Assembly (NCBI GenBank): GCA_037893245.1
Contig: JBAIAA010000865.1
Coordinates: 1,550,001 to 1,614,000 of the forward strand
Direction of reading: 5' to 3'
Length of the DNA stretch: 64,000 nt
Origin: Crossaster papposus
Taxonomy: Eukaryota > Echinodermata > Asteroidea > Velatida > Solasteridae
In this document: positions 4,972-46,000 of the stretch, piece by piece
Numbering within the stretch: position 1 is the first letter of the stretch
Layout: each line of letters opens with the position of its first letter
Position numbers and translations under genes: made by a program
Notes under the pieces: generated by a model
What the model was told of the DNA's origin: nothing
The model's input: the letters and a program-made list of their open reading frames with translations, nothing else
The model's database searches: none

Positions 4972-5096
4972 CAGAAGGAACAGCAGAGGTAGAAGACAGA
5001 GATAGAGTATATCCACGTGTCTGATCTACACCTCACTCAGCCTGCTCAGAAGGAACAGCAGAGGTAAAATACAGAGATAGAGTATATCCACGTGTC

Positions 5097-22690: not shown

Positions 22691-23842
22691 CAGCCTGCTC
22701 AGAAGGAACAGCAGAGGTAGACGACAGAGATAGAGTATATCCACGTGTCTGATCTACACCTCACTCAGCCTGCTCAGAAAGAACAGCAGAGGTAGAATAC
22801 ATAGATGGAGTATATCCACGTGTCTGATCTACACCTCACTCAGCCTGCTCAGAAGGAACAGCAGAGGTGGAAGACAGAGATAGAGTATATCCACGTGTTT
22901 GAACCACACCTCACTCAGCCTGCTCAGAAGGAGCAGCAGAGGTAGACGACAGAGATAGAGTATATCCACGTGTCTGATCTACACCTCACTCAGCCTGCTC
23001 AGAAGGAGCAACAGAGGTAGAAGACAGAGATAGAGTATATCCACGTGTCTGATCTACACCTCACTCAGCCTGCTCAGAAGGAACAGCAGAGGTAGAAGAC
23101 AGAGATAGAGTATATCCACGTGTCTGATCTACACTTCACTCAGCCTGCTCAGAAGGAACAGCAGAGGTAGACGACAGAGATAGAGTATATCCACGTGTCT
23201 GATCTACACCTCACTCAGCCTGCTCAGAAGGAACAGCAGAGGTAGAATACATAGATGGAGTATATCCACGTGTCTGATCTACACCTCACTCAGCCTGCTC
23301 AGAAGGAACAGCAGAGGTGGAAGACAGAGATAGAGTATATCCACGTGTTTGAACCACACCTCACTCAGCCTGCTCAGAAGGAACAGCAGAGGTAGACGAC
23401 AGAGATAGAGTATATCCACGTGTCTGATCTACACCTCACTCAGCCTGCTCAGAAGGAGCAACAGAGGTAGAAGACAGAGATAGAGTATATCCACGTGTCT
23501 GATCTACACCTCACTCAGCCTGCTCAGAAGGAACAGCAGAGGTAGAAGACAGAGATAGAGTATATCCACGTGTCTGATCTACACTTCACTCAGCCTGCTC
23601 AGAAGGAACAGCAGAGGTAGAAGACAGAGATAGAGTATATCCACGTGTCTGATCTACACCTCACTAAGCCTTCTCAGAAAGGAACAGCAGAGGTAGAAGA
23701 CAGATATATAATATATCCACGTGTCTCACTCATCCTGCTCAGAAGGAACAGCAGAGGTAGAAGACAGAGATAGAGTATATCCACGTGTCTGATCTACACC
23801 TCACTCAGCCTGCTCAGAAGGAACAGCAGAGGTAGAAGACAG
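22501..23842 (+). repeat. Block repeated from 13,141 (copy 2, first ctaag form)
   Basis: This is the partner of 13,141-14,482. It contains the leftmost ctaagccttc unit in the window (23,664). It also has ggagcagcag near 22,931 and acgac near 23,172 where copy 1 has ggaacagcag and the private actac. Nearly all units of this class further right carry ctaag, so this block sits at the founding edge of the HOR core. Confidence 0.82.
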
Positions 23843-26118
23843 AAATAGAGTATATCCACGTGTCTGGTCTACACCTCACTCAGCCTGCTCAGAAGGAACA
23901 GCAGCGGTACAAGACAGAGATATAGTATATCCACGTGTCTCACTCAGCCTGCTCAGAAGGAACAGCAGAGGTAGAAGACAGAGATAGAGTATATCCACGT
24001 GTCTCACTCAGCCTGCTCAGAAGGAACAGCAGAGGTAGACGACAGAGATAGAGTATATCCACATGTCTGATCTACACCTCACTCAGCCTGCTCAGAAGGA
24101 GCAACAGAGGTAGAAGACAAAGATAGAGTATATCCACGTGTCTGATCTACACCTCACTCAGCCTGCTCAGAAGGAACAGCAGAGGTAGAAGACAGAGATA
24201 GATTATATCCACGTGTCTGATCTACACCTCACTCAGCCTGCTCAGAAGGAACAGCAGAGGTAGAAGACAGAGATAGAGTATATCCACGTGTCTGATCTAC
24301 ATCTCACTCAGCCTGCTCAGAAGGAACAGCAGAGGTAAAATACAGAGATAGAGTATATCCAGGTGTCTCACTCAGCCTGCTCAGAAGGAACAGCAGAGGT
24401 AGAAGACAGAGATAGAGTATATCCACGTGTCTGATCTACACCTCACTCAGCCTGCTCAGGAGGAACAGCAGAGGTAGAAGACAGAGATAGAGTATATCCA
24501 CGTGTCTGATCTACACCTCACTCAGCCTGCTCAGAAGGAACAGCAGAGGTAGAAGACAGATATATAGTATATCCACGTGTCTCACTCATCCTGCTCAGAA
24601 GGAACAGCAGAAGTAGAAGACAGAGATAGAGTATATCCACGTGTCTGATATACACCTCACTCAGCCTGCTCAGAAGGAACAGCAGAGGTAGAAGACACAG
24701 ATAAATTATATCCACGTGTCTGATCTACACCTCACTCAGCCTGCTCAGAGGAACAGCAGAGGTAGAAGACAGAGATAGAGTATATCCACGTGTCTGATCT
24801 ACACCTCACTCAGCCTGCTCAGAAGGAACAGCAGAGGTAAAAGACAGAGATATAGTATATCCACGTGTCTCACTCAGCCTGCTCAGAAGGAACAGCAGAG
24901 GTAGAAGACAGAGATAGAGTATATCCACGTGTCTGATCTACACATCACTCAGCCTGCTCAGAAGGGACAGCAGAGGTAGAAGACAGAGATAGAGTATATC
25001 CACGTGTCTGATCTACACCTCACTCAGCCTGCTCAGAAGGAACAGCAGAGGTAGAAGACAGATATATAGTATATCCACGTGTCTCACTCATCCTGCTCAG
25101 AAGAAACAGCAGAAGTAGAAGACAGAGATAGAGTATATCCACGTGTCTGATATACACCTCACTCAGCCTGCTCAGAAGGGACAGCAGAGGTAGAAGACAC
25201 AGATAAATTATATCCACGTGTCTGATCTACACCTCACTCAGCCTGCTCAGAGGAACAGCAGAGGTAGAAGACAGAGATAGAGTATATCCACGTGTCTGAT
25301 CTACACCTCACTCAGCCTGCTCAGAAGGAACAGCAGAGGTACAAGACAGAGATATAGTATATCCACGTGTCTCACTCAGCCTGCTCAGAAGGAACAGCAG
25401 AGGTAGAAGACAGAGATAGAGTATATCCACGTGTCTCACTCAGCCTGCTCAGAAGGAACAGCAGAGGTAGACGACAGAGATAGAGTATATCCACGTGTCT
25501 GATCTACACCTCACTCAGCCTGCTCAGAAGGAACAGCAGAGGTAGAATACATAGATGGAGTATATCCACGTGTCTGATCTACACCTCACTCAGCCTGCTC
25601 AGAAGGAACAGCAGCGGTACAAGACAGAGATATAGTATATCCACGTGTCTCACTCAGCCTGCTCAGAAGGAACAGCAGAGGTAGAAGACAGAGATAGAGT
25701 ATATCCACGTGTCTCACTCAGCCTGCTCAGAAGGAACAGCAGAGGTAGACGACAGAGATAGAGTATATCCACGTGTCTGATCTACACCTCACTCAGCCTG
25801 CTCAGAAGGAGCAACAGAGGTAGAAGACAGAGATAGAGTATATCCACGTGTCTGATCTACACCTCACTCAGCCTGATCAGAAGGAACAGCAGAGGTAGAA
25901 GACAGAGATAGAGTATATCCACGTGTCTGATCTACACTTCACTCAGCCTGCTCAGAAGGAACAGCAGAGGTAGAAGACAGAGATAGAGTATATCCACGTG
26001 TCTGATATACACCTCACTCAGCCTGCTCAGAAGAAACAGCAGAGGTAGAAGACAGAGATAGAGTATATCCATGTGTCTGATCTACACCTCACTAAGCCTT
26101 CTCAGAAAGGAACAGCAG
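23843..26118 (+). repeat. Mixed array between the first ctaag unit and the first 21-mer HOR
   Basis: The stretch holds the same units in irregular order. It includes the cggtacaag 64-bp units (23,905 and 25,614), the agatatatag/aagtagaag/acacagataaatt run (24,543-24,720 and 25,045-25,222) and the rare gcctgatcag tail at 25,871. Its last part is the end of the first copy of the roughly 6-kb super-repeat. No gene or foreign sequence was found. Confidence 0.75.
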
Positions 26119-27649
26119 AGGTAGAAGACAGATATATAATATATCCACGTGTCTCACTCATCCTGCTCAGAAGGAACAGCAGAGGTAGAAGACAGAGATA
26201 GAGTATATCCACGTGTCTGATCTACACCTCACTCAGCCTGCTCAGAAGGAACAGCAGAGGTAGAAGACAGATATATAGTATATCCACGTGTCTCACTCAT
26301 CCTGCTCAGAAGAAACAGCAGAAGTAGAAGACAGAGATAGAGTATATCCACGTGTCTGATATACACCTCACTCAGCCTGCTCAGAAGGGACAGCAGAGGT
26401 AGAAGACACAGATAAATTATATCCACGTGTCTGATCTACACCTCACTCAGCCTGCTCAGAGGAACAGCAGAGGTAGAAGACAGAGATAGAGTATATCCAC
26501 GTGTCTGATCTACACCTCACTCAGCCTGCTCAGAAGGAACAGCAGAGGTACAAGACAGAGATATAGTATATCCACGTGTCTCACTCAGCCTGCTCAGAAG
26601 GAACAGCAGAGGTAGAAGACAGAGATAGAGTATATCCACGTGTCTCACTCAGCCTGCTCAGAAGGAACAGCAGAGGTAGACGACAGAGATAGAGTATATC
26701 CACGTGTCTGATCTACACCTCACTCAGCCTGCTCAGAAGGAACAGCAGAGGTAGAATACATAGATGGAGTATATCCACGTGTCTGATCTACACCTCACTC
26801 AGCCTGCTCAGAAGGAACAGCAGAGGTGGAAGACAGAGATAGAGTATATCCACGTGTTTGAACCACACCTCACTCAGCCTGCTCAGAAGGAACAGCAGAG
26901 GTAGACGACAGAGATAGAGTATATCCACGTGTCTGATCTACACCTCACTCAGCCTGCTCAGAAGGAACAGCAGAGGTAGAAGACAGAGATAGAGTATATC
27001 CACGTGTCTGATCTACACTTCACTCAGCCTGCTCAGAAGGAACAGCAGAGGTAGACGACAGAGATAGAGTATATCCACGTGTCTGATCTACACCTCACTC
27101 AGCCTGCTCAGAAGGAACAGCAGAGGTAGAATACATAGATGGAGTATATCCACGTGTCTGATCTACACCTCACTCAGCCTGCTCAGAAGGAACAGCAGAG
27201 GTGGAAGACAGAGATAGAGTATATCCACGTGTTTGAACCACACCTCACTCAGCCTGCTCAGAAGAAACAGCAGAGGTAGACGACAGAGATAGAGTATATC
27301 CACGTGTCTGATCTACACCTCACTCAGCCTGCTCAGAAGGAGCAACAGAGGTAGAAGACAGAGATAGAGTATATCCACGTGTCTGATCTACACCTCACTC
27401 AGCCTGCTCAGAAGGAACAGCAGAGGTAGAAGACAGAGATAGAGTATATCCACGTGTCTGATCTACACTTCACTCAGCCTGCTCAGAAGGAACAGCAGAG
27501 GTAGAAGACAGAGATAGAGTATATCCACGTGTCTGATCTACACCTCACTCAGCCTGCTCAGAAGAAACAGCAGAGGTAGAAGACAGAGATAGAGTATATC
27601 CACGTGTCTGATCTACACCTCACTAAGCCTTCTCAGAAAGGAACAGCAG
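26119..27649 (+). repeat. 21-mer HOR, 1,531 bp, copy 1
   Basis: Register runs from ctaag unit to ctaag unit (26,092 to 27,623). It has the same unit order as 38,646-40,176 and 62,460-63,990. Relative to the 13-mer it contains an additional agatatatag/aagtagaag/acacagataaatt block and a second acgac-atacatagatgg-gtttgaacc run. A private gaagaaac tail occurs near 27,264. Confidence 0.88.
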
Positions 27650-28592
27650 AGGTAGAAGACAGATATATAATATATCCACGTGTCTCACTCATCCTGCTCA
27701 GAAGGAACAGCAGAGGTAGAAGACAGAGATAGAGTATATCCACGTGTCTGATCTACACCTCACTCAGCCTGCTCAGAAGGAACAGCAGAGGTAGAAGACA
27801 GAGATAGAGTATATCCACGTGTCTGATCTACACCTCACTCAGCCTGCTCAGAAGGAACAGCAGCGGTACAAGACAGAGATATAGTATATCCACGTGTCTC
27901 ACTCAGCCTGCTCAGAAGGAACAGCAGAGGTAGAAGACAGAGATAGAGTATATCCACGTGTCTCACTCAGCCTGCTCAGAAGGAACAGCAGAGGTAGACG
28001 ACAGAGATAGAGTATATCCACGTGTCTGATCTACACCTCACTCAGCCTGCTCAGAAGGAACAGCAGAGGTAGAATACATAGATGGAGTATATCCACGTGT
28101 CTGATCTACACCTCACTCAGCCTGCTCAGAAGGAACAGCAGAGGTGGAAGACAGAGATAGAGTATATCCACGTGTTTGAACCACACCTCACTCAGCCTGC
28201 TCAGAAGGAACAGCAGAGGTAGACGACAGAGATAGAGTATATCCACGTGTCTGATCTACACCTCACTCAGCCTGCTCAGAAGGAGCAACAGAGGTAGAAG
28301 ACAGAGATAGAGTATATCCACGTGTCTGATCTACACCTCACTCAGCCTGCTCAGAAGGAACAGCAGAGGTAGAAGACAGAGATAGAGTATATCCACGTGT
28401 CTGATCTACACTTCACTCAGCCTGCTCAGAAGGAACAGCAGAGGTAGAAGACAGAGATAGAGTATATCCACGTGTCTGATCTACACCTCACTCAGCCTGC
28501 TCAGAAGAAACAGCAGAGGTAGAAGACAGAGATAGAGTATATCCACGTGTCTGATCTACACCTCACTAAGCCTTCTCAGAAAGGAACAGCAG
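27650..28592 (+). repeat. 13-mer HOR, 943 bp, copy 1
   Basis: The interval between ctaag units is exactly 943 bp (27,623 to 28,566). Unit order is as described for 33,956-34,898. It is followed by a gtgtctcaatcag unit and the irregular part of the super-repeat. Confidence 0.9.
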
Positions 28593-31500
28593 AGGTAGAA
28601 GACAGATATATAATATATCCACGTGTCTCACTCATCCTGCTCAGAAGGAACAGCAGAGGTAGAAGACAGAGATAGAGTATATCCACGTGTCTGATCTACA
28701 CCTCACTCAGCCTGCTCAGAAGGAACAGCAGAGGTAGAAGACAGAGATAGAGTATATCCACGTGTCTGATCTACACCTCACTCAGCCTGCTCAGAAGGAA
28801 CAGCAGCGGTACAAGACAGAGATATAGTATATCCACGTGTCTCACTCAGCCTGCTCAGAAGGAACAGCAGAGGTAGAAGACAGAGATAGAGTATATCCAC
28901 GTGTCTCAATCAGCCTGCTCAGAAGGAACAGCAGAGGTAGACGACAGAGATAGAGTATATCCACGTGTCTGATCTACACCTCACTCAGCCTGCTCAGAAG
29001 GAACAGCAGAGGTAGAAGACATAGATGGAGTATATCCACGTGTCTGATCTACACCTCACTCAGCCTGCTCAGAAGGAACAGCAGAGGTAGAAGACAGAGA
29101 TAGAGTATATCCACGTGTCTGATCTACACTTCACTCAGCCTGCTCAGAAGGAACAGCAGAGGTAGAAGACAGAGATAGAGTATATCCACGTGTCTGATCT
29201 ACACCTCACTCAGCCTGCTCAGAAGGAACAGCAGAGGTAAAAGACAGAGATATAGTATATCCACGTGTCTCACTCAGCCTGCTCAGAAGGAACAGCAGAG
29301 GTAGAAGACAGAGATAGAGTATATCCACGTGTCTGATCTACACCTCACTCAGCCTGCTCAGAAGAAACAGCAGAGGTAGAAGACAGAGATAGAGTATATC
29401 CACGTGTCTGATCTACACCTCACTCAGCCTTCTCAGAAAGGAACAGCAGAGGTAGAAGACAGATATATAATATATCCACGTGTCTCACTCATCCTGCTCA
29501 TAAGGAACAGCAGAGGTAGAAGACAGAGATAGAGTATATCCACGTGTCTGATCTACACCTCACTCAGCCTGCTCAGAAGGAACAGCAGAGGTAGAAGACA
29601 GAGATAGATTATATCCACGTGTCTGATCTACACCTCACTCAGCCTGCTCAGAAGGAACAGCAGAGGTAGGAGACAGAGATAGAGTATATCCACGTGTCTG
29701 ATCTACATCTCACTCAGCCTGCTCAGAAGGAACAGCAGAGGTAAAATACAGAGATAGAGTATATCCAGGTGTCTCACTCAGCCTGCTCAGAAGGAACAGC
29801 AGAGGTAGAAGACAGAGATAGAGTATATCCACGTGTCTGATCTACACCTCACTCAGCCTGCTCAGGAGGAACAGCAGAGGTAGAAGACAGAGATAGAGTA
29901 TATCCACGTGTCTGATCTACACCTCACTCAGCCTGCTCAGAAGGAACAGCAGAGGTAGAAGACAGATATATAGTATATCCACGTGTCTGATCTACACCTC
30001 ACTCAGCCTGCTCAGAGGAACAGCAGAGGTAGAAGACAGAGATAGAGTATATCCACGTGTCTGATCTACACCTCACTCAGCCTGCTCAGAAGGAACAGCA
30101 GAGGTAAAAGACAGAGATATAGTATATCCACGTGTCTCACTCAGCCTGCTCAGAAGGAACAGCAGAGGTAGAAGACGGAGATAGAGTATATCCACGTGTC
30201 TGATCTACACATCACTCAGCCTGCTCAGAAGGGACAGCAGAGGTAGAAGACAGAGATAGAGTATATCCACGTGTCTGATCTACACCTCACTCAGCCTGCT
30301 CAGAAGGAACAGCAGAGGTAGAAGACACAGATAAATTATATCCACGTGTCTGATCTACACCTCACTCAGCCTGCTCAGAGGAACAGCAGAGGTAGAAGAC
30401 AGAGATAGAGTATATCCACGTGTCTGATATACACCTCACTCAGCCTGCTCAGAAGGAACAGCAGAGGTAGAAGACACAGATAAATTATATCCACGTGTCT
30501 GATCTACACCTCACTCAGCCTGCTCAGAGGAACAGCAGAGGTAGAAGACAGAGATAGAGTATATCCACGTGTCTGATCTACACCTCACTCAGCCTGCTCA
30601 GAAGGAACAGCAGAGGTAAAAGACAGAGATATAGTATATCCACGTGTCTCACTCAGCCTGCTCAGAAGGAACAGCAGAGGTAGAAGACACAGATAGAGTA
30701 TATCCACGTGTCTGATCTACACATCACTCAGCCTGCTCAGAAGGGACAGCAGAGGTAGAAGACAGAGATAGAGTATATCCACGTGTCTGATCTACACCTC
30801 ACTCAGCCTGCTCAGAAGGAACAGCAGAGGTAGAAGACAGATATATAGTATATCCACGTGTCTCACTCATCCTGCTCAGAAGAAACAGCAGAAGTAGAAG
30901 ACAGAGATAGAGTATATCCACGTGTCTGATATACACCTCACTCAGCCTGCTCAGAAGGGACAGCAGAGGTAGAAGACACAGATAAATTATATCCACGTGT
31001 CTGATCTACACCTCACTCAGCCTGCTCAGAGGAACAGCAGAGGTAGAAGACAGAGATAGAGTATATCCACGTGTCTGATCTACACCTCACTCAGCCTGCT
31101 CAGAAGGAACAGCAGAGGTACAAGACAGAGATATAGTATATCCACGTGTCTCACTCAGCCTGCTCAGAAGGAACAGCAGAGGTAGAAGACAGAGATAGAG
31201 TATATCCACGTGTCTCACTCAGCCTGCTCAGAAGGAACAGCAGAGGTAGACGACAGAGATAGAGTATATCCACGTGTCTGATCTACACCTCACTCAGCCT
31301 GCTCAGAAGGAACAGCAGAGGTAGAATACATAGATGGAGTATATCCACGTGTCTGATCTACACCTCACTCAGCCTGCTCAGAAGGAACAGCAGAGGTGGA
31401 AGACAGAGATAGAGTATATCCACGTGTTTGAACCACACCTCACTCAGCCTGCTCAGAAGGAACAGCAGAGGTAGACGACAGAGATAGAGTATATCCACGT

Positions 31501-31994
31501 GTCTGATCTACACCTCACTCAGCCTGCTCAGAAGGAGCAACAGAGGTAGAAGACAGAGATAGAGTATATCCACGTGTCTGATCTACACCTCACTCAGCCT
31601 GCTCAGAAGGAACAGCAGAGGTAGAAGACAGAGATAGAGTATATCCACGTGTCTGATCTACACTTCACTCAGCCTGCTCAGAAGGAACAGCAGAGGTAGA
31701 CGACAGAGATAGAGTATATCCACGTGTCTGATCTACACCTCACTCAGCCTGCTCAGAAGGAACAGCAGAGGTAGAATACATAGATGGAGTATATCCACGT
31801 GTCTGATCTACACCTCACTCAGCCTGCTCAGGAGGAACAGCAGAGGTGGAAGACAGAGATAGAGTATATCCACGTGTTTGAACCACACCTCACTCAGCCT
31901 GCTCAGAAGGAACAGCAGAGGTAGACGACAGAGATAGAGTATATCCACGTGTCTGATCTACACCTCACTAAGCCTTCTCAGAAAGGAACAGCAG
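28593..31994 (+). repeat. Irregular part of super-repeat copy A
   Basis: This stretch of 3,402 bp contains ctcag-form 76-bp units (near 29,423), ccaggtg, caggagg and acacagataaatt units and a rare gctcataagg tail at 29,501. The counterpart in copy B (34,899-37,927) is 373 bp shorter. Here the run of 74/75-bp units near 29,950-30,480 is doubled, and one unit near 29,960 is chimeric (agatatatag head with gatctacacc centre). Confidence 0.78.
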
Positions 31995-32712
31995 TGGTAG
32001 AAGACAGATATATAATATATCCACGTGTCTCACTCATCCTGCTCAGAAGGAACAGCAGAGGTAGAAGACAGAGATAGAGTATATCCACGTGTCTGATCTA
32101 CACCTCACTCAGCCTGCTCAGAAGGAACAGCAGAGGTAGAAGACAGAGATAGAGTATATCCACGTGTCTGATCTACACCTCACTCAGCCTGCTCAGAAGG
32201 AACAGCAGCGGTACAAGACAGAGATATAGTATATCCACGTGTCTCACTCAGCCTGCTCAGAAGGAACAGCAGAGGTAGAAGACAGAGATAGAGTATATCC
32301 ACGTGTCTCACTCAGCCTGCTCAGAAGGAACAGCAGAGGTATACGACAGAGATAGAGTATATCCACGTGTCTGATCTACACCTCACTCAGCCTGCTCAGA
32401 AGGAGCAACAGAGGTAGAAGACAGAGATAGAGTATATCCACGTGTCTGATCTACACCTCACTCAGCCTGATCAGAAGGAACAGCAGAGGTAGAAGACAGA
32501 GATAGAGTATATCCACGTGTCTGATCTACACTTCACTCAGCCTGCTCAGAAGGAACAGCAGAGGTAGAAGACAGAGATAGAGTATATTCACGTGTCTGAT
32601 CTACACCTCACTCAGCCTGCTCAGAAGAAACAGCAGAGGTAGAAGACAGAGATAGAGTATATCCACGTGTCTGATCTACACCTCACTAAGCCTTCTCAGA
32701 AAGGAACAGCAG
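31995..32712 (+). repeat. 10-mer HOR, 718 bp, copy 1
   Basis: Ten units (three of 64, six of 75 and one of 76 bp) make this the 943-bp HOR lacking three 75-bp units (225 bp: atacatagatgg, gtttgaacc and an acgac unit). Its first unit begins with the rare tggtagaag, shared only with the copy at 37,928. It carries private changes gtatacgac and tattcacg. Confidence 0.88.
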
Positions 32713-33955
32713 AGGTAGAAGACAGATATATAATATATCCACGTGTCTCACTCATCCTGCTCAGAAGGAACAGCAGAGGTAGAAGACAGAGATACAGTAT
32801 ATCCACGTGTCTGATCTACACCTCACTCAGCCTGCTCAGAAGGAACAGCAGAGGTACAAGACAGAGATATAGTATATCCACGTGTCTCACTCAGCCTGCT
32901 CAGAAGGAACAGCAGAGGTAGAAGACAGAGATAGAGTATATCCACGTGTCTCACTCAGCCTGCTCAGAAGGAACAGCAGAGGTAGACGACAGAGATAGAG
33001 TATATCCACGTGTCTGATCTACACCTCACTCAGCCTGCTCAGAAGGAACAGCAGAGGTAGAATACATAGATGGAGTATATCCACGTGTCTGATCTACACC
33101 TCACTCAGCCTGCTCAGAAGGAACAGCAGAGGTGGAAGACAGAGATAGAGTATATCCACGTGTTTGAACCACACCTCACTCAGCCTGCTCAGAAGGAACA
33201 GCAGAGGTAGACGACAGAGATAGAGTATATCCACGTGTCTGATCTACACCTCACTCAGCCTGCTCAGAAGGAACAGCAGAGGTAGAAGACAGAGATAGAG
33301 TATATCCACGTGTCTGATCTACACTTCACTCAGCCTGCTCAGAAGGAACAGCAGAGGTAGACGACAGAGATAGAGTATATCCACGTGTCTGATCTACACC
33401 TCACTCAGCCTGCTCAGAAGGAACAGCAGAGGTAGAATACATAGATGGAGTATATCCACGTGTCTGATCTACACCTCACTCAGCCTGCTCACAAGGAACA
33501 GCAGAGGTGGAAGACAGAGATAGAGTATATCTACGTGTTTGAACCACACCTCACTCAGCCTGCTCAGAAGGAACAGCAGAGGTAGACGACAGAGATAGAG
33601 TATATCCACGTGTCTGATCTACACCTCACTCAGCCTGCTCAGAAGGAGCAACAGAGGTAGAAGACAGAGATAGAGTATATCCACGTGTCTGATCTACACC
33701 TCACTCAGCCTGCTCAGAAGGAACAGCAGAGGTAGAAGACAGAGATAGAGTATATCCACGTGTCTGATCTACACTTCACTCAGCCTGCTCAGAAGGAACA
33801 GCAGAGGTAGAAGACAGAGATAGAGTATATCCACGTGTCTGATCTACACCTCACTCAGCCTGCTCAGAAGAAACAGCAGAGGTAGAAGACAGAGATAGAG
33901 TATATCCACGTGTCTGATCTACACCTCACTAAGCCTTCTCAGAAAGGAACAGCAG
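32713..33955 (+). repeat. 17-mer HOR, 1,243 bp
   Basis: This is the 21-mer with one contiguous four-unit block missing (64+75+74+75 = 288 bp). The agatatatag/aagtagaag/acacagataaatt run present in the other 21-mers is absent after the second unit, near 32,815. Other changes are private (gatacagta near 32,793, cacaagg near 33,490, tctacgtg near 33,530). A short plus-strand open frame at 32,667-32,921 crosses its start and is an artefact of the repeat. Confidence 0.88.
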
Positions 33956-34121
33956 AGGTAGAAGACAGATATATAATATATCCACGTGTCTCACTCATCC
34001 TGCTCAGAAGGAACAGCAGAGGTAGAAGACAGAGATAGAGTATATCCACGTGTCTGATCTACACCTCACTCAGCCTGCTCAAAAGGAACAGCAGAGGTAG
34101 AAGACAGAGATAGAGTATATC

Positions 34122-34127
34122 CACGTG
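34122..34127. promoter_or_regulatory. CACGTG palindrome (E-box/G-box-like), exemplar of one per monomer
   Basis: The palindrome CACGTG lies about 28 bases into nearly every unit, whether 75 or 64 bp. It is the core of E-box sites bound by basic helix-loop-helix factors in animals and fungi, and of the plant G-box. Binding here is untested. It also supplies the main CpG of each unit. Sporadic units lose it (ccaggtg near 24,360, ccatgtg near 20,965, ccacttg near 3,655, ccaagtg near 45,751, ccccgtg near 53,086). Conservation may simply reflect homogenisation of the array. Confidence 0.45.
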
Positions 34128-34139
34128 TCTGATCTACAC
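34125..34139. other. Short inverted repeat GTGT/ACAC spanning the 11-bp indel site
   Basis: In 75-bp units GTGT is followed seven bases later by ACAC, able to form a four-base-pair hairpin. The 11 bases missing from 64-bp units (gatctacacct) include the whole ACAC arm. The element is short and weak, but its position coincides with the deletion that separates the two unit classes. The gtttgaacc variant keeps the arms while changing the loop. A functional role is not shown. Confidence 0.4.
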
Positions 34140-34149
34140 CTCACTCAGC

Positions 34150-34169
34150 CTGCTCAGAAGGAACAGCAG
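34150..34169. other. Inverted repeat CTGCT/AGCAG at the monomer end
   Basis: CTGCT and AGCAG flank a ten-base loop (cagaaggaac) at the tail of the unit, and an extra CC/GG pair with one bulged base can extend the stem. Both arms are well conserved, but the loop is where the 74-bp (loss of one A) and 76-bp (gain of one A) indels occur. A transcript from either strand could fold here once per unit; transcription is not shown. Confidence 0.4.
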
Positions 34170-34233
34170 CGGTACAAGACAGAGATATAGTATATCCACG
34201 TGTCTCACTCAGCCTGCTCAGAAGGAACAGCAG

Positions 34234-34297
34234 AGGTAGAAGACAGAGATAGAGTATATCCACGTGTCTCACTCAGCCTGCTCAGAAGGAACAGCAG
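34234..34297 (+). repeat. Exemplar of the 64-bp short monomer
   Basis: This unit is identical in plan to the 75-bp form but lacks the 11-bp block gatctacacct after cacgtgtct, so cacgtgtct joins directly to cactcagcc. The block ends in ct and is preceded by ct, a 2-bp direct repeat consistent with replication slippage. Short units sit at fixed places in the HORs (three in the 943-bp 13-mer, four in the 1,531-bp 21-mer). The loss therefore looks old and is now spread by HOR amplification, not recurrent. Because 64 is not a multiple of three, each short unit shifts the reading frame. Confidence 0.95.
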
Positions 34298-34447
34298 AGG
34301 TAGACGACAGAGATAGAGTATATCCACGTGTCTGATCTACACCTCACTCAGCCTGCTCAGAAGGAACAGCAGAGGTAGAATACATAGATGGAGTATATCC
34401 ACGTGTCTGATCTACACCTCACTCAGCCTGCTCAGAAGGAACAGCAG

Positions 34448-34522
34448 AGGTGGAAGACAGAGATAGAGTATATCCACGTGTTTGAACCACACCTCACTCA
34501 GCCTGCTCAGAAGGAACAGCAG
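34448..34522 (+). repeat. Exemplar of the gtttgaacc variant 75-bp monomer
   Basis: This unit starts aggtggaag and has cacgtgtttgaaccacacc where canonical units have cacgtgtctgatctacacc. The cluster of clustered substitutions next to CACGTG makes it the most divergent 75-bp class that recurs regularly. It marks one fixed place in the 943-bp HOR (eighth of 13 units) and also occurs in the 1-10 kb domain. On the minus strand the change replaces the in-frame TAG with TGG, which is one of the two reasons short open frames appear. Confidence 0.88.
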
Positions 34523-34822
34523 AGGTAGACGACAGAGATAGAGTATATCCACGTGTCTGATCTACACCTCACTCAGCCTGCTCAGAAGGAGCAACAGAGG
34601 TAGAAGACAGAGATAGAGTATATCCACGTGTCTGATCTACACCTCACTCAGCCTGCTCAGAAGGAACAGCAGAGGTAGAAGACAGAGATAGAGTATATCC
34701 ACGTGTCTGATCTACACTTCACTCAGCCTGCTCAGAAGGAACAGCAGAGGTAGAAGACAGAGATAGAGTATATCCACGTGTCTGATCTACACCTCACTCA
34801 GCCTGCTCAGAAGAAACAGCAG

Positions 34823-34898
34823 AGGTAGAAGACAGAGATAGAGTATATCCACGTGTCTGATCTACACCTCACTAAGCCTTCTCAGAAAGGAACAGCAG
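34823..34898 (+). repeat. Exemplar of the 76-bp ctaag/agaaagg monomer (last unit of the HOR)
   Basis: This unit has two diagnostic changes. One is cactaagccttctc in place of cactcagcctgctc. The other is an inserted A giving cagaaaggaac, which makes the unit 76 bp. I used it as the end of the HOR register. In the left part of the window the corresponding units read cactcagccttctc, with the same inserted A but without the C-to-A change. The A insertion and the cttctc change are therefore shared across the array, and ctaag is a later change restricted to the right part. Confidence 0.9.
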
Positions 34899-37800
34899 AG
34901 GTAGAAGACAGATATATAATATATCCACGTGTCTCACTCATCCTGCTCAGAAGGAACAGCAGAGGTAGAAGACAGAGATAGAGTATATCCACGTGTCTGA
35001 TCTACACCTCACTCAGCCTGCTCAGAAGGAACAGCAGAGGTAGAAGACAGAGATAGAGTATATCCACGTGTCTGATCTACACCTCACTCAGCCTGCTCAG
35101 AAGGAACAGCAGCGGTACAAGACAGAGATATAGTATATCCACGTGTCTCACTCAGCCTGCTCAGAAGGAACAGCAGAGGTAGAAGACAGAGATAGAGTAT
35201 ATCCACGTGTCTCAATCAGCCTGCTCAGAAGGAACAGCAGAGGTAGACGACAGAGATAGAGTATATCCACGTGTCTGATCTACACCTCACTCAGCCTGCT
35301 CAGAAGGAACAGCAGAGGTAGAAGACATAGATGGAGTATATCCACGTGTCTGATCTACACCTCACTCAGCCTGCTCAGAAGGAACAGCAGAGGTAGAAGA
35401 CAGAGATAGAGTATATCCACGTGTCTGATCTACACTTCACTCAGCCTGCTCAGAAGGAACAGCAGAGGTAGAAGACAGAGATAGAGTATATCCACGTGTC
35501 TGATCTACACCTCACTCAGCCTGCTCAGAAGGAACAGCAGAGGTAAAAGACAGAGATATAGTATATCCACGTGTCTCACTCAGCCTGCTCAGAAGGAACA
35601 GCAGAGGTAGAAGACAGAGATAGAGTATATCCACGTGTCTGATCTACACCTCACTCAGCCTGCTCAGAAGAAACAGCAGAGGTAGAAGACAGAGATAGAG
35701 TATATCCACGTGTCTGATCTACACCTCACTCAGCCTTCTCAGAAAGGAACAGCAGAGGTAGAAGACAGATATATAATATATCCACGTGTCTCACTCATCC
35801 TGCTCATAAGGAACAGCAGAGGTAGAAGACAGAGATAGAGTATATCCACGTGTCTGATCTACACCTCACTCAGCCTGCTCAGAAGGAACAGCAGAGGTAG
35901 AAGACAGAGATAGATTATATCCACGTGTCTGATCTACACCTCACTCAGCCTGCTCAGAAGGAACAGCAGAGGTAGAAGACAGAGATAGAGTATATCCACG
36001 TGTCTGATCTACATCTCACTCAGCCTGCTCAGAAGGAACAGCAGAGGTAAAATACAGAGATAGAGTATATCCAGGTGTCTCACTCAGCCTGCTCAGAAGG
36101 AACAGCAGAGGTAGAAGACAGAGATAGAGTATATCCACGTGTCTGATCTACACCTCACTCAGCCTGCTCAGGAGGAACAGCAGAGGTAGAAGACAGAGAT
36201 AGAGTATATCCACGTGTCTGATCTACACCTCACTCAGCCTGCTCAGAAGGAACAGCAGAGGTAGAAGACAGATATATAGTATATCCACGTGTCTCACTCA
36301 TCCTGCTCAGAAGGAACAGCAGAAGTAGAAGACAGAGATAGAGTATATCCACGTGTCTGATATACACCTCACTCAGCCTGCTCAGAAGGAACAGCAGAGG
36401 TAGAAGACACAGATAAATTATATCCACGTGTCTGATCTACACCTCACTCAGCCTGCTCAGAGGAACAGCAGAGGTAGAAGACAGAGATAGAGTATATCCA
36501 CGTGTCTGATCTACACCTCACTCAGCCTGCTCAGAAGGAACAGCAGAGGTAAAAGACAGAGATATAGTATATCCACGTGTCTCACTCAGCCTGCTCAGAA
36601 GGAACAGCAGAGGTAGAAGACAGAGATAGAGTATATCCACGTGTCTGATCTACACATCACTCAGCCTGCTCAGAAGGGACAGCAGAGGTAGAAGACAGAG
36701 ATAGAGTATATCCACGTGTCTGATCTACACCTCACTCAGCCTGCTCAGAAGGAACAGCAGAGGTAGAAGACAGATATATAGTATATCCACGTGTCTCACT
36801 CATCCTGCTCAGAAGAAACAGCAGAAGTAGAAGACAGAGATAGAGTATATCCACGTGTCTGATATACACCTCACTCAGCCTGCTCAGAAGGGACAGCAGA
36901 GGTAGAAGACACAGATAAATTATATCCACGTGTCTGATCTACACCTCACTCAGCCTGCTCAGAGGAACAGCAGAGGTAGAAGACAGAGATAGAGTATATC
37001 CACGTGTCTGATCTACACCTCACTCAGCCTGCTCAGAAGGAACAGCAGAGGTACAAGACAGAGATATAGTATATCCACGTGTCTCACTCAGCCTGCTCAG
37101 AAGGAACAGCAGAGGTAGAAGACAGAGATAGAGTATATCCACGTGTCTCACTCAGCCTGCTCAAAAGGAACAGCAGAGGTAGACGACAGAGATAGAGTAT
37201 ATCCACGTGTCTGATCTACACCTCACTCAGCCTGCTCAGAAGGAACAGCAGAGGTAGAATACATAGATGGAGTATATCCACGTGTCTGATCTACACCTCA
37301 CTCAGCCTGCTCAGAAGGAACAGCAGAGGTGGAAGACAGAGATAGAGTATATCCACGTGTTTGAACCACACCTCACTCAGCCTGCTCAGAAGGAACAGCA
37401 GAGGTAGACGACAGAGATAGAGTATATCCACGTGTCTGATCTACACCTCACTCAGCCTGCTCAGAAGGAGCAACAGAGGTAGAAGACAGAGATAGAGTAT
37501 ATCCACGTGTCTGATCTACACCTCACTCAGCCTGCTCAGAAGGAACAGCAGAGGTAGAAGACAGAGATAGAGTATATCCACGTGTCTGATCTACACTTCA
37601 CTCAGCCTGCTCAGAAGGAACAGCAGAGGTAGACGACAGAGATAGAGTATATCCACGTGTCTGATCTACACCTCACTCAGCCTGCTCAGAAGGAACAGCA
37701 GAGGTAGAATACATAGATGGAGTATATCCACGTGTCTGATCTACACCTCACTCAGCCTGCTCAGAAGGAACAGCAGAGGTGGAAGACAGAGATAGAGTAT

Positions 37801-37927
37801 ATCCACGTGTTTGAACCACACCTCACTCAGCCTGCTCAGAAGGAACAGCAGAGGTAGACGACAGAGATAGAGTATATCCACGTGTCTGATCTACACCTCA
37901 CTAAGCCTTCTCAGAAAGGAACAGCAG
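34899..37927 (+). repeat. Irregular part of super-repeat copy B
   Basis: This 3,029-bp stretch is the counterpart of 28,593-31,994. It shares the gctcataagg tail (35,807, offset 6,306 bp) and ccaggtg, caggagg and gaagggac units. It lacks the 373-bp doubled run of copy A. It ends in the tggtagaag-type boundary shared with copy A. Confidence 0.8.
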
Positions 37928-38645
37928 TGGTAGAAGACAGATATATAATATATCCACGTGTCTCACTCATCCTGCTCAGAAGGAACAGCAGAGGTAGAAG
38001 ACAGAGATAGAGTATATCCACGTGTCTGATCTACACCTCACTCAGCCTGCTCAGAAGGAACAGCAGAGGTAGAAGACAGAGATAGAGTATATCCACGTGT
38101 CTGATCTACACCTCACTCAGCCTGCTCAGAAGGAACAGCAGCGGTACAAGACAGAGATATAGTATATCCACGTGTCTCACTCAGCCTGCTCAGAAGGAAC
38201 AGCAGAGGTAGAAGACAGAGATAGAGTATATCCACGTGTCTCACTCAGCCTGCTCAGAAGGAACAGCAGAGGTAGACGACAGAGATAGAGTATATCCACG
38301 TGTCTGATCTACACCTCACTCAGCCTGCTCAGAAGGAGCAACAGAGGTAGAAGACAGAGATAGAGTATATCCACGTGTCTGATCTACACCTCACTCAGCC
38401 TGATCAGAAGGAACAGCAGAGGTAGAAGACAGAGATAGAGTATATCCACGTGTCTGATCTACACTTCACTCAGCCTGCTCAGAAGGAACAGCAGAGGTAG
38501 AAGACAGAGATAGAGTATATCCACGTGTCTGATCTACACCTCACTCAGCCTGCTCAGAAGAAACAGCAGAGGTAGAAGACAGAGATAGAGTATATCCAAG
38601 TGTCTGATCTACACCTCACTAAGCCTTCTCAGAAAGGAACAGCAG
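37928..38645 (+). repeat. 10-mer HOR, 718 bp, copy 2
   Basis: This copy has the same length and order as 31,995-32,712, including the tggtagaag start and the gcctgatcag tail at 38,398 (offset 5,933 bp). A private ccaagtg change near 38,597 removes the palindrome from one unit. Confidence 0.88.
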
Positions 38646-40176
38646 AGGTAGAAGACAGATATATAATATATCCACGTGTCTCACTCATCCTGCTCAGAAG
38701 GAACAGCAGAGGTAGAAGACAGAGATAGAGTATATCCACGTGTCTGATCTACACCTCACTCAGCCTGCTCAGAAGGAACAGCAGAGGTAGAAGACAGATA
38801 TATAGTATATCCACGTGTCTCACTCATCCTGCTCAGAAGAAACAGCAGAAGTAGAAGACAGAGATAGAGTATATCCACGTGTCTGATCTACACCTCACTC
38901 AGCCTGCTCAGAAGGGACAGCAGAGGTAGAAGACACAGATAAATTATATCCACGTGTCTGATCTACACCTCACTCAGCCTGCTCAGAGGAACAGCAGAGG
39001 TAGAAGACAGAGATAGAGTATATCCACGTGTCTGATCTACACCTCACTCAGCCTGCTCAGAAGGAACAGCAGAGGTACAAGACAGAGATATAGTATATCC
39101 ACGTGTCTCACTCAGCCTGCTCAGAAGGAACAGCAGAGGTAGAAGACAGAGATAGAGTATATCCACGTGTCTCACTCAGCCTGCTCAGAAGGAACAGCAG
39201 AGGTAGACGACAGATATAGAGTATATCCACGTGTCTGATCTACACCTCACTCAGCCTGCTCAGAAGGAACAGCAGAGGTAGAATACATAGATGGAGTATA
39301 TCCACGTGTCTGATCTACACCTCACTCAGCCTGCTCAGAAGGAACAGCAGAGGTGGAAGACAGAGATAGAGTATATCCACGTGTTTGAACCACACCTCAC
39401 TCAGCCTGCTCAGAAGGAACAGCAGAGGTAGACGACAGAGATAGAGTATATCCACGTGTCTGATCTACACCTCACTCAGCCTGCTCAGAAGGAACAGCAG
39501 AGGTAGAAGACAGAGATAGAGTATATCCACGTGTCTGATCTACACTTCACTCAGCCTGCTCAGAAGGAACAGCAGAGGTAGACGACAGAGATAGAGTATA
39601 TCCACGTGTCTGATCTACACCTCACTCAGCCTGCTCAGAAGGAACAGCAGAGGTAGAATACATAGATGGAGTATATCCACGTGTCTGATCTACACCTCAC
39701 TCAGCCTGCTCAGAAGGAACAGCAGAGGTGGAAGACAGAGATAGAGTATATCCACGTGTTTGAACCACACCTCACTCAGCCTGCTCAGAAGGAACAGCAG
39801 AGGTAGACGACAGAGATAGAGTATATCCACGTGTCTGATCTACACCTCACTCAGCCTGCTCAGAAGGAGCAACAGAGGTAGAAGACAGAGATAGAGTATA
39901 TCCACGTGTCTGATCTACACCTCACTCAGCCTGCTCAGAAGGAACAGCAGAGGTAGAAGACAGAGATAGAGTATATCCACGTGTCTGATCTACACTTCAC
40001 TCAGCCTGCTCAGAAGGAACAGCAGAGGTAGAAGACAGAGATAGAGTATATCCACGTGTCTGATCTACACCTCACTCAGCCTGCTCAGAAGAAACAGCAG
40101 AGGTAGAAGACAGAGATAGAGTATATCCACGTGTCTGATCTACACCTCACTAAGCCTTCTCAGAAAGGAACAGCAG
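38646..40176 (+). repeat. 21-mer HOR, 1,531 bp, copy 2
   Basis: The ctaag units at 38,619 and 40,150 are exactly 1,531 bp apart. The order is as in 26,119-27,649, but the aagtagaag unit has the canonical gatctacacc instead of gatatacacc. That removes the minus-strand open frame found at the same place in most other copies. Confidence 0.88.
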
Positions 40177-41697
40177 AGGTAGAAGACAGATATATAATAT
40201 ATCCACGTGTCTCACTCATCCTGCTCAGAAGGAACAGCAGAGGTAGAAGACAGAGATAAAGTATATCCACGTGTCTGATCTACACCTCACTCAGCCTGCT
40301 CAGAAGGAACAGCAGAGGTAGAAGACAGAGATAGAGTATATCCACGTGTCTGATCTACACCTCACTCAGCCTGCTCAGAAGGAACAGCAGCGGTACAAGA
40401 CAGAGATATAGTATATCCACGTGTCTCACTCAGCCTGCTCAGAAGGAACAGCAGAGGTAGAAGACAGAGATAGAGTATATCCACGTGTCTCACTCAGCCT
40501 GCTCAGAAGGAACAGCAGAGGTAGACGACAGAGATAGAGTATATCCACGTGTCTGATCTACACCTCACTCAGCCTGCTCAGAAGGAACAGCAGAGGTACA
40601 AGACAGAGATATAGTATATCCACGTGTCTCACTCAGCCTGCTCAGAAGGAACAGCAGAGGTAGAAGACAGAGATAGAGTATATCCACTTGTCTCACTCAG
40701 CCTGCTCAGAAGGAACAGCAGAGGTAGACGACAGATATAGAGTATATCCACGTGTCTGATCTACACCTCACTCAGCCTGCTCAGAAGGAACAGCAGAGGT
40801 AGAATACATAGATGGAGTATATCCACGTGTCTGATCTACACCTCACTCAGCCTGCTCAGAAGGAACAGCAGAGGTGGAAGACAGAGATAGAGTATATCCA
40901 CGTGTTTGAACCACACCTCACTCAGCCTGCTCAGAAGGAACAGCAGAGGTAGACGACAGAGATAGAGTATATCCACGTGTCTGATCTACACCTCACTCAG
41001 CCTGCTCAGAAGGAACAGCAGAGGTAGAAGACAGAGATAGAGTATATCCACGTGTCTGATCTACACTTCACTCAGCCTGCTCAGAAGGAACAGCAGAGGT
41101 AGACGACAGAGATAGAGTATATCCACGTGTCTGATCTACACCTCACTCAGCCTGCTCAGAAGGAACAGCAGAGGTAGAATACATAGATGGAGTATATCCA
41201 CGTGTCTGATCTACACCTCACTCAGCCTGCTCAGAAGGAACAGCAGAGGTGGAAGACAGAGATAGAGTATATCCACGTGTTTGAACCACACCTCACTCAG
41301 CCTGCTCAGAAGGAACAGCAGAGGTAGACGACAGAGATAGAGTATATCCACGTGTCTGATCTACACCTCACTCAGCCTGCTCAGAAGGAGCAACAGAGGT
41401 AGAAGACAGAGATAGAGTATATCCACGTGTCTGATCTACACCTCACTCAGCCTGCTCAGAAGGAACAGCAGAGGTAGAAGACAGAGATAGAGTATATCCA
41501 CGTGTCTGATCTACACTTCACTCAGCCTGCTCAGAAGGAACAGCAGAGGTAGAAGACAGAGATAGAGTATATCCACGTGTCTGATCTACACCTCACTCAG
41601 CCTGCTCAGAAGAAACAGCAGAGGTAGAAGACAGAGATAGAGTATATCCACGTGTCTGATCTACACCTCACTAAGCCTTCTCAGAAAGGAACAGCAG
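40177..41697 (+). repeat. 21-mer HOR, 1,521 bp, alternative composition
   Basis: Twenty-one units with five of 64, fifteen of 75 and one of 76 bp sum to 1,521. It lacks the 74-bp acacagataaatt unit and instead repeats the gtacaag and following 64-bp units (near 40,594 and 40,658, the second with cacttgtc). The ends match the HOR register, so this looks like an unequal-exchange hybrid of a 13-mer and a 21-mer. Confidence 0.85.
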
Positions 41698-42640
41698 AGG
41701 TAGAAGACAGATATATAATATATCCACGTGTCTCACTCATCCTGCTCAGAAGGAACAGCAGAGGTAGAAGACAGAGATAAAGTATATCCACGTGTCTGAT
41801 CTACACCTCACTCAGCCTGCTCAGAAGGAACAGCAGAGGTAGAAGACAGAGATAGAGTATATCCACGTGTCTGATCTACACCTCACTCAGCCTGCTCAGA
41901 AGGAACAGCAGCGGTACAAGACAGAGATATAGTATATCCACGTGTCTCACTCAGCCTGCTCAGAAGGAACAGCAGAGGTAGAAGACAGAGATAGAGTATA
42001 TCCACGTGTCTCACTCAGCCTGCTCAGAAGGAACAGCAGAGGTAGACGACAGAGATAGAGTATATCCACGTGTCTGATCTACACCTCACTCAGCCTGCTC
42101 AGAAGGAACAGCAGAGGTAGAATACATAGATGGAGTATATCCACGTGTCTGATCTACACCTCACTCAGCCTGCTCAGAAGGAACAGCAGAGGTGGAAGAC
42201 AGAGATAGAGTATATCCACGTGTTTGAACCACACCTCACTCAGCCTGCTCAGAAGGAACAGCAGAGGTAGACGACAGAGATAGAGTATATCCACGTGTCT
42301 GATCTACACCTCACTCAGCCTGCTCAGAAGGAGCAACAGAGGTAGAAGACAGAGATAGAGTATATCCACGTGTCTGATCTACACCTCACTCAGCCTGCTC
42401 AGAAGGAACAGCAGAGGTAGAAGACAGAGATAGAGTATATCCACGTGTCTGATCTACACTTCACTCAGCCTGCTCAGAAGGAACAGCAGAGGTAGAAGAC
42501 AGAGATAGAGTATATCCACGTGTCTGATCTACACCTCACTCAGCCTGCTCAGAAGAAACAGCAGAGGTAGAAGACAGAGATAGAGTATATCCACGTGTCT
42601 GATCTACACCTCACTAAGCCTTCTCAGAAAGGAACAGCAG
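41698..42640 (+). repeat. 13-mer HOR, 943 bp, copy 3
   Basis: The ctaag units at 41,671 and 42,614 are exactly 943 bp apart, with unit order as in the reference copy. It shares gataaagta near 41,777 with the preceding 21-mer (near 40,256), which indicates that the two are recent relatives. Confidence 0.9.
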
Positions 42641-43028
42641 AGGTAGAAGACAGATATATAATATATCCACTTGTCTCACTCATCCTGCTCAGAAGGAACA
42701 GCAGAGGTAGAAGACAGAGATAGAGTATATCCACGTGTCTGATCTACACCTCACTCAGCCTGCTCAGAAGGAACAGCAGAGGTAGAAGACAGAGATAGAG
42801 TATATCCACGTGTCTGATCTACACCTCACTCAGCCTGCTCAGAAGGAACAGCAGCGGTACAAGACAGAGATATAGTATATCCACGTGTCTCACTCAGCCT
42901 GCTCAGAAGGAACAGCAGAGGTAGAAGACAGAGATAGAGTATATCCACGTGTCTCAATCAGCCTGCTCAGAAGGAACAGCAGAGGTAGACGACAGAGATA
43001 GAGTATATCCACGTGTCTGATCTACACC

Positions 43029-46000
43029 TCACTCAGCCTGCTCAGAAGGAACAGCAGAGGTAGAAGACAGAGATAGAGTATATCCACGTGTCTTATCAGC
43101 CTGCTCAGAAGGAACAGCAGAGGTAGAAGACAGAGAGAGAGTATATCCACGTGTCTGATCTACACCTCACTCAGCCTGCTCACAAGGAACAGCAGAGGTA
43201 GAATACAGAGATAGAGTATATCCACGTGTCTCACTCAGCCTGCTCAGAAGGAACAGCAGAGGTAGAAGACAGAGATAGAGTATATCCACGTGTCTCACTC
43301 AGCCTGCTCAGAAGGAACAGCAGAGGTAGAAGACTGAGATAGAGTATATACACGTGTCTGATCTACACCTAACTCAGCCTGCTCAGAAGGAACAGCAGAG
43401 GTAGAAGACAGATATAGAGTATATCCACGTGTCTCACTCAGCCTGCTCAGAAGGAACAGCAGAGTAGAATACAGAGATAGAGTATATCCACGTGTCTGAT
43501 CTACTCCTCACTCAGCCTGCTCAGAAGGAACAGCAGAGGTAGAAGACAGAGATAGAGTATATCCACGTGTCTGATCTACACCTCACTCAGCCTGCTCAGA
43601 AGGAACAGCAGAGGTAGAAGACAGAGATAGAGTATATCCACGTGTCTGATCTACACTTCACTCAGCCTGCTCAGAAGGAACAGCAGAGGTAGAAGACAGA
43701 GATAGAGTATATCCACGTGTCTGATCTACACCTCACTCAGCCTGCTCAGAAGGAACAGCAGAGGTAGAATACATAGATGGAGTATATCCACGTGTCTGAT
43801 CTACACCTCACTCAGCCTGCTCAGAAGGAACAGCAGAGGTGGAAGACAGAGATAGAGTATATCCACGTGTTTGAACCACACCTCACTCAGCCTGCTCAGA
43901 AGGAACAGCAGAGGTAGACGACAGAGATAGAGTATATCCACGTGTCTGATCTACACCTCACTCAGCCTGCTCAGAAGGAGCAACAGAGGTAGAAGACAGA
44001 GATAGAGTATATCCACGTGTCTGATCTACACCTCACTCAGCCTGCTCAGAAGGAACAGCAGAGGTAGAAGACAGAGATAGAGTACATCCACGTGTCTGAT
44101 CTACACTTCACTCAGCCTGCTCAGAAGGAACAGCAGAGGTAGAAGACAGAGATAGAGTATATCCACGTGTCTGATCTACACCTCACTCAGCCTGCTCAGA
44201 AGAAACAGCAGAGGTAGAAGACAGAGATAGAGTATATCCACGTGTCTGATCTACACCTCACTAAGCCTTCTCAGAAAGGAACAGCAGAGGTAGAAGACAG
44301 ATATATAATATATCCACGTGTCTCACTCATCCTGCTCAGAAGGAACAGCAGAGGTAGAAGACAGAGATAGAGTATATCCACGTGTCTGATCTACACCTCA
44401 CTCAGCCTGCTCAGAAGGAACAGCAGAGGTAGAAGACAGAGATAGAGTATATCCACGTGTCTGATCTACACCTCACTCAGCCTGCTCAGAAGGAACAGCA
44501 GCGGTACAAGACAGAGATATAGTATATCCACGTGTCTCACTCAGCCTGCTCAGAAGGAACAGCAGAGGTAGAAGACAGAGATAGAGTATATCCACGTGTC
44601 TCACTCAGCCTGCTCAGAAGGAACAGCAGAGGTAGACGACAGAGATAGAGTATATCCACGTGTCTGATCTACACCTCACTCAGCCTGCTCAGAAGGAACA
44701 GCAGAGGTAGAATACATAGATGGAGTATATCCACGTGTCTGATCTACACCTCACTCAGCCTGCTCAGAAGGAACAGCAGAGGTGGAAGACAGAGATAGAG
44801 TATATCCACGTGTTTGAACCACACCTCACTCAGCCTGCTCAGAAGGAACAGCAGAGGTAGACGACAGAGATAGAGTATATCCACGTGTCTGATCTACACC
44901 TCACTCAGCCTGCTCAGAAGGAGCAACAGAGGTAGAAGACAGAGATAGAGTATATCCACGTGTCTGATCTACACCTCACTCAGCCTGCTCAGAAGGAACA
45001 GCAGAGGTAGAAGACAGAGATAGAGTATATCCACGTGTCTGATCTACACTTCACTCAGCCTGCTCAGAAGGAACAGCAGAGGTAGAAGACAGAGATAGAG
45101 TATATCCACGTGTCTGATCTACACCTCACTCAGCCTGCTCAGAAGAAACAGCAGAGGTAGAAGACAGAGATAGAGTATATCCACGTGTCTGATCTACACC
45201 TCACTAAGCCTTCTCAGAAAGGAACAGCAGAGGTAGAAGACAGATATATAATATATCCACATGTCTCACTCATCCTGCTCAGAAGAAACAGCAGAGGTAG
45301 AAGACAGAGATAGAGTATATCCACGTGTCTGATCTACACCTCACTCAGCCTGCTCAGAAGGAACAGCAGAGGTAGAAGACAGAGATAGAGTATATCCACG
45401 TGTCTGATCTACACCTCACTCAGCCTGCTCAGAAGGAACAGCAGCGGTACAAGACAGAGATATAGTATATCCACGTGTCTCACTCAGCCTGCTCAGAAGG
45501 AACAGCAGAGGTAGAAGACAGAGATAGAGTATATCCACGTGTCTCAATCAGCCTGCTCAGAAGGAACAGCAGAGGTAAACGACAGAGATAGAGTATATCC
45601 ACGTGTCTGATCTACACCTCACTCAGCCTGCTCAGAAGGAACAGCAGAGGTAGAAGACATAGATGGAGTATATCCACGTGTCTGATCTACACCTCACTCA
45701 GCCTGCTCAGAAGGAACAGCAGAGGTGGAAGACAGAGATAGAGTATATCCAAGTGTTTGAACCACACCTCACTCAGCCTGCTCAGAAGGAAGAGCAGAGG
45801 TAGAAGACAGAGATAGAGTATATCCACGTGTCTGATATACACCTCACTCAGCCTGCTCAGAAGGAACAGCAGAGGTAGAAGACACAGATAAATTATATCC
45901 ACGTGTCTGATCTACACCTCACTCAGCCTGCTCAGAGGAACAGCAGAGGTAGAAGACAGAGATAGAGTATATCCACGTGTCTGATCTACACCTCACTCAG

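Follow-up and report, generated by a model that had tools for sequence, protein, structure and literature searches.

A 13-unit block repeated within a megabase-scale satellite array: block-wise turnover without a lasting higher-order period

Human alpha satellite is built on a monomer of ~171 bp, is known for its CENP-B box and iterates one fixed n-unit block many times. A higher-order repeat (HOR) array in this strict sense is recognised by identity that returns at n, 2n and 3n units. In Arabidopsis, the CEN178 arrays have irregular HORs made of 178-bp units, and their occupancy by CENH3 is known. A broader definition is that of TRASH, in which HORs are block pairs of equal unit number that match position by position (PMC10199239, in excerpt). 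Megabase satellites with macro-dyad symmetry and thousands of conserved inversion sites have been described in Tribolium madens (PMC13081366, in excerpt). In Populus, HOR structure was also reported for arrays that have no CENH3 peak and are hence called non-centromeric (PMC12046899, in excerpt). For satellite turnover, the excerpted part of PMC8997354 considers two models, unequal exchange and break-induced replication.

The DNA studied here is a stretch of 64,000 bp (the window) at positions 1,550,001-1,614,000 of contig C865, in a genome of 1.02 Gb. Its closest match is found in the irregular HORs of CEN178, with which it has in common multi-unit block pairs of many lengths and spacings, high within-position identity, the absence of a lasting period and megabase arrays. 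CEN178 is a plant satellite of 178-bp units with known CENH3 occupancy, whereas this array mixes units of 64 bp with units of 75 bp. The comparison with alpha satellite is more divided. Instead of many iterations of one fixed block, ~2 and at most 3.03 tandem copies were seen, and unit length is 64 or 75 bp, not 171 bp. A CENP-B box, searched with up to one mismatch allowed, had 0 matches in the window, which is not excluding by itself since alpha monomers do not all carry the box. Shared with human alpha satellite are block-wise homogenisation, layered domains and copy-number change between haplotypes (PMC11062924 and PMC8997354, in excerpt). As far as strand switches and paired satellites are concerned, the closest system is Tribolium madens, which likewise has megabase arrays, two intermingled satellites and strand switches inside the arrays (PMC13081366, in excerpt); here, in contrast to the thousands of conserved sites, one switch was located on C865 and one on a second contig, C142, with unlike junctions. 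The Populus arrays outside the centromere are another HOR-bearing satellite like this one (PMC12046899, in excerpt).

The whole window (1..64000, + strand) is a single satellite of head-to-tail units. Among the 888 units into which it was cut, a length of 75 bp is commonest (570 units), followed by 64 bp (238), 76 bp (40) and 74 bp (33), with 7 units of other lengths; the 64-bp consensus is without 11 bp (GATCTACACCT) of the 75-bp unit. There are 183 distinct unit sequences, and the mean identity over all unit pairs is 0.944. CpG is scarce in the window (observed/expected 0.27), and 842 of its 963 CpGs sit inside a CACGTG palindrome that occurs once per unit. Decay of this CpG to TG or CA is rare (10 of 888 window units and 24 of 2082 other units), and the array thus shows no evident sign of CpG methylation in the germline. 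The palindrome was considered as a specially conserved box, which is not supported: among the 75-bp unit types of the window its C and G rank 37th and 57th of 75 positions, and in the other samples they rank 28th and 48th, ranks which are even flattered, as the anchor used for cutting the units contains the box. A strand-asymmetric spectrum of changes was also observed: per site of the unit strand, G to T changes outnumber C to A changes by a factor of 2.8-3.3, and the excess is present in oppositely oriented arrays as well (the window and the samples from L031 onward).

The array is a non-coding, megabase-scale satellite. A coding tandem repeat was dismissed with 0 ORFs of at least 100 aa in the window, where the longest stop-to-stop frame in six frames has 92 codons. 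A structured RNA was dismissed with no Rfam match at the gathering threshold in window positions 30000-38000 and a consensus unit that folds no better than shuffles (z -0.82), and a phage or plasmid origin of the array with no match. Telomeric repeats had 0 matches within the window, and five 20-24-mers of the unit, searched literally in paper texts, gave no match.

The preliminary description of this DNA had reported five exact copies of a 943-bp, 13-unit HOR (Table 1). All five were found at their given starts, with 13 units each; they are exact in length and unit order, while their sequences are off by 0-2 bases. The unit lengths run 64, 75, 75, 64, 64, seven times 75 and 76 in every copy, and the unit types follow the same order, give or take one base per unit. 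In the comparison set beforehand as decisive, units at the same position of the block have an identity of 0.9991 (130 pairs) and units at different positions 0.9469 (1560 pairs), so that the copies form an HOR in the broad TRASH sense, for which blocks need at least 3 units with close similarity at each position. Chance is excluded by the longest exactly repeated run, which comprises 30 units against 3-4 in all 60 of 60 shuffles of the unit order. When 943-bp windows were taken every 50 bp (n = 1262), 86 had at least five copies at no more than two mismatches, and 83 of these 86 have one of the five copies no more than 943 bp from their start. The 13-unit block is thus the dominant, most repeated block in the window. 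Its boundaries at 33956-34898 are an arbitrary phase, and the near-identical stretches around the copies extend to 1.9-3.3 kb. Consecutive copies are spaced by 6306, 7742, 2590 and 5178 bp. At an offset of 943 bp, 12,066 of the 64,000 bp are tandemly related; each copy lies within a tandem run of 1.84-2.03 copies when counted by bases, and three tandem runs of the block reach 2.15 copies when counted by units.

Table 1. Copies of the 13-unit block, larger duplications and a less homogenised island (positions in the window).
Feature	Position	Strand	Remarks
Copy 1 of the 943-bp, 13-unit block	27650..28592	+	1 mismatch against copy 2
Copy 2 of the 943-bp, 13-unit block (reference)	33956..34898	+	
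Copy 3 of the 943-bp, 13-unit block	41698..42640	+	2 mismatches against copy 2
Copy 4 of the 943-bp, 13-unit block	44288..45230	+	1 mismatch against copy 2
Copy 5 of the 943-bp, 13-unit block	49466..50408	+	1 mismatch against copy 2; one more tandem copy at the matching site of C142
Duplication, offset 6306	26606..36152	+	26606-29846 again at 32912-36152; 3240 bp, 5 mismatches; holds copies 1 and 2
Duplication, offset 5178	43102..51555	+	43102-46377 again at 48280-51555; 3275 bp, 2 mismatches; holds copies 4 and 5
Duplication, offset 2590	41056..45539	+	41056-42949 again at 43646-45539; 1893 bp, 5 mismatches; holds copies 3 and 4
24-unit, 1712-bp tandem duplication	19344..22653	+	1597 bp mismatch-free
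21-unit, 1521-bp tandem duplication	39133..41984	+	1330 bp, 1 mismatch
Island of less homogenised units	56001..60000	+	recurrent 2-unit words 0.28 and 0.11

Larger duplications account in part for the five copies, and three of them hold copies in pairs (Table 1). Blocks of 4-48 units were duplicated likewise in ten stretches, among those listed, and no block of 2-99 units exceeded 2.25 tandem copies in the ten stretches tested. Tandem tracts number 28 in the window, and those with at least two copies take in 26% of its units. Exact repeated runs of at least 3 units take in 713 of the 888 units, those of at least 5 units 631 and those of at least 13 units 285, and runs of at least 8 units were found at 53 different shifts. 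A steady fall of similarity with distance is absent, the exact fraction in the window being 0.021-0.031 up to shift 400, 0.024 up to 600 and 0.019 beyond. Outside the less homogenised island, the fraction of recurrent 2-unit words in the 2-kb bins of the window is 0.57-0.96.

Contig C142 is near-collinear with the window from 8,838 to ~61,960 (about 52 kb). Unit-level alignment matched 643 units, of which 580 are identical. Over 46,018 bp it counts 72 substitutions (0.16%), and it contains 13 unit indels of 63 to 4242 bp that total 12,777 bp. A base-level chain of the same two sequences has 48 mismatches in 44,105 bp; the two counts differ as the two procedures pair different units. The unit alignment yields whole-unit indels by design and proves nothing on the frame by itself. 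An independent sign that the unit frame was kept through the indels is provided by the uniform length of the units, as all 1027 in the window and sample L045 and all 726 in C142 measure 62-76 bp, with one oddity of 67 bp. Four matched unit pairs are unequal in length (by 11, 10, 8 and 1 bp), and these account at least partly for the jumps of 11, -131 and -1 bp, not whole units, in the base-level chain.

C142 holds seven copies of the block against five in the window. The five of the window appear in the same order at 1416058, 1422364, 1430237, 1432827 and 1437942, and two additional ones at 1438885 and 1442289, the step from 1437942 to 1438885 being exactly 943 bp. Two of the spacings, 6306 and 2590 bp, are the same as in the window, and the other two are 7873 and 5115 bp versus 7742 and 5178 bp. 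At the site of copy 5, the tandem run comprises 3.03 copies in C142 compared with 2.03 in the window, and the strings of unit types differ by one additional 13-unit block. This means that the block itself was the step of a copy-number change and that the array turns over block-wise. The multi-unit indels were also compared with shifted sequence, the one with the 13-unit copy falling outside this set because of a sequence gap there. For none of those compared was the best match at a distance of its own length, so many may represent deletions, or exchange with remote units. A 39-mer over one of the block's unit junctions has 87 occurrences genome-wide, all in C142 (39) and C865 (48); as 33 of them are in the window, it is a marker for a pair of units rather than for the block as a whole.

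On a larger scale, satellite was sampled from four contigs, C30, C124, C142 and C865, and the genome-wide lists of places run to at least about 100 entries. At every sampled point, ends included, C865 (1.72 Mb) and C142 (1.89 Mb) are satellite, which makes megabase arrays of both by sampling along the contigs. A core 14-mer occurs 312,964 times in the genome at a density of 10.6-11.5 per kb of sampled array, from which roughly 27-30 Mb of satellite is estimated. Unit types present in the window and absent from the C124 and C30 samples, taken as window-private, make up 33-64% of the units in the C865 samples at 765-850 kb and 1,500-1,624 kb and 0-10% in those at 1,000-1,400 kb or beyond 1,624 kb. 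Two homogenised domains of C865 thus share private units, and the three samples between them (1,000, 1,200 and 1,400 kb) differ. The right domain edge is abrupt and lies near C865:1,623.7 kb, 9.7 kb past the window; the proportion of 64-bp units there jumps from ~0.3 to 0.6.

On C124 the satellite starts directly after non-satellite DNA (within 1,600,601-1,601,000), and from this edge to the contig end (4.14 Mb) the samples show the satellite, on one strand or the other, apart from two at 3.2-3.3 Mb, in which relatives of a 199-bp satellite were seen. The satellite edge on C124 is not visibly decayed, and the non-satellite flank, from 1,600,001 on, has short AT-rich subrepeats and a 148-residue frame that is open at its start. 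On C30, at ~409 kb, the 64/75-bp satellite abuts this second satellite of 199 bp, present there in 3 copies with 98% matches (sample L070). We also note that C8, a contig of at least 5.2 Mb, has COX1-like genes with long open frames that lack internal stops, and is possibly a bacterial contig in the assembly.

The preliminary description took the copies for a fixed HOR, homogenised in multi-unit blocks and best known from primate alpha satellite. If the block were indeed the fixed repeat unit of a regular, alpha-satellite-like HOR, seen in the window in a decayed or young state, peaks would be needed at shifts of 13, 26 and 39 units. The five copies with the same unit order and high within-position identity agree with this, as do the additional tandem copy in C142 and the position of 943 bp as the strongest base-level shift of the window between 400 and 19,999 bp, the ten shifts that rank above it all being of 353 bp or less. 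At shift 13, the fraction of identical unit pairs is 0.071 compared with 0.027 +/- 0.005 in shuffles (n = 200, largest 4.7%), and at shift 39 it is also raised, to 0.058. At shift 26, however, it is 0.019, which is background level, and shifts 194 (0.075), 87 (0.074) and 442 (0.072) slightly exceed shift 13. Base identity drops from 0.379 at 943 bp to 0.299 at 1886 and 0.272 at 2829 bp, near the median of 0.261. The runs hold ~2 copies in the window and 3.03 in C142, and the five copies together occupy only 7.4% of the window. A regular HOR is therefore very unlikely, and a fixed HOR as organiser of the array is not supported; what survives of the claim, and of the likeness to alpha satellite, is block-wise homogenisation, as seen in the one-copy difference between C142 and the window, while regularity was overstated. 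The array is an HOR under the broad TRASH definition and is not an HOR array under the strict alpha-satellite one. Still more improbable is that the repeats are assembly artefacts of collapsed or duplicated reads. Megabase satellites are hard to assemble, and both C865 and C142 begin and end within satellite; yet a second contig with substitutions of its own holds all five copies in the same order, and the copies differ from each other by single bases.

Whether C142 and C865 are alleles is a separate matter. They may instead belong to two different chromosomes, or to separate places of a single array, and have in common a segment that was exchanged recently. The single strand switches located on the two contigs, at C865:611,670 (sample L095) and C142:486,173 (sample L123), have unlike junctions, and that of C865 is unique in the genome within 2 mismatches; a shared junction, which was sought as proof of allelism, was not found. 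Outside the collinear core, C142:1,468-1,473 kb fits window positions 57-59 kb best among the stretches compared, and C865 at 765-850 kb is rich in window-private units while C142 at 560 kb has much fewer. Set against these are the divergence of 0.11-0.16% over 44-46 kb, the unit-pair variant private to the two contigs, the finding of one switch on each by sampling and a broadly similar order of domains, so non-allelic origin is regarded as a doubtful but serious possibility. As to function, we consider it somewhat probable that the array would be (peri)centromeric heterochromatin of an asterozoan echinoderm, a guess made, for the (peri)centromere, from its size and its neighbours. For the host, the mitochondrial COX1 on contig C1841 scores highest with genetic code 9 (507.6 bits, compared with 491.0, 483.2 and 482.9 bits for codes 21, 5 and 13), and an ND1-like frame is placed upstream of COX1 in antisense; both suggest an echinoderm from the branch of starfish and brittle stars. 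Large size, an edge to non-satellite DNA and an adjoining second satellite are a frequent look of centromeric regions, and all three speak against a pericentromeric, heterochromatic or sex/B-chromosome block that has no kinetochore function and is shaped by the same exchange process. Such a block is nonetheless conceivable, at less than even odds, since the satellite was seen on few contigs only and HOR structure is not specific to centromeres; the non-centromeric HOR arrays described in the excerpted text of PMC12046899 imply that HOR structure alone is no proof of a centromere. A more specific proposal is a centromere satellite whose 64/75-bp units hold CACGTG on one helix face for a putative bHLH-type centromere protein. 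By arithmetic only, with 10.5 bp per turn, a 64-bp unit makes 6.1 turns and a 75-bp unit 7.1, and the 11-bp difference of about one helix turn would leave CACGTG on nearly the same face. Against it, CACGTG is not unusually conserved among the 75-bp types, and units of 74 and 76 bp occur; the proposal is extremely unlikely.

Taken together, we favour, with a probability of roughly 0.8, an irregular, layered satellite array that turns over by out-of-register exchange, in which blocks are duplicated or deleted in the unit frame. Block repeats, a kept unit frame, a difference of one block copy and the lack of a lasting period are what was observed; how the units recombined, and in which order, would be as follows. 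When replication or recombination leaves a break, neighbouring units, ~94% alike, may pair out of register, and repair that respects the unit frame would then duplicate or delete blocks that range from a few units to a few dozen. The route could be unequal sister exchange or break-induced replication, the data favouring neither. The 943-bp block of 13 units was presumably doubled in tandem and then spread to five places, partly via the larger duplications, and its copy number would have changed since the window and C142 parted. Later exchange events would nest with earlier ones.

These results bear on how such arrays are read. A few identical multi-unit blocks are not equal to a fixed HOR, the test for which is identity that recurs at multiples of the block length. 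Two near-collinear contigs provide a view of satellite turnover at unit resolution: at a substitution level of 0.16%, 13 unit indels amount to 12.8 kb over about 50 kb, and the 13-unit block went from 2 to 3 tandem copies between the window and C142, or the reverse. Among the matches listed in open-licence PMC there were no papers on echinoderm centromeric satellites, which is a weak kind of absence. If centromeric, the array would give sequence for a phylum in which such arrays seem little described.
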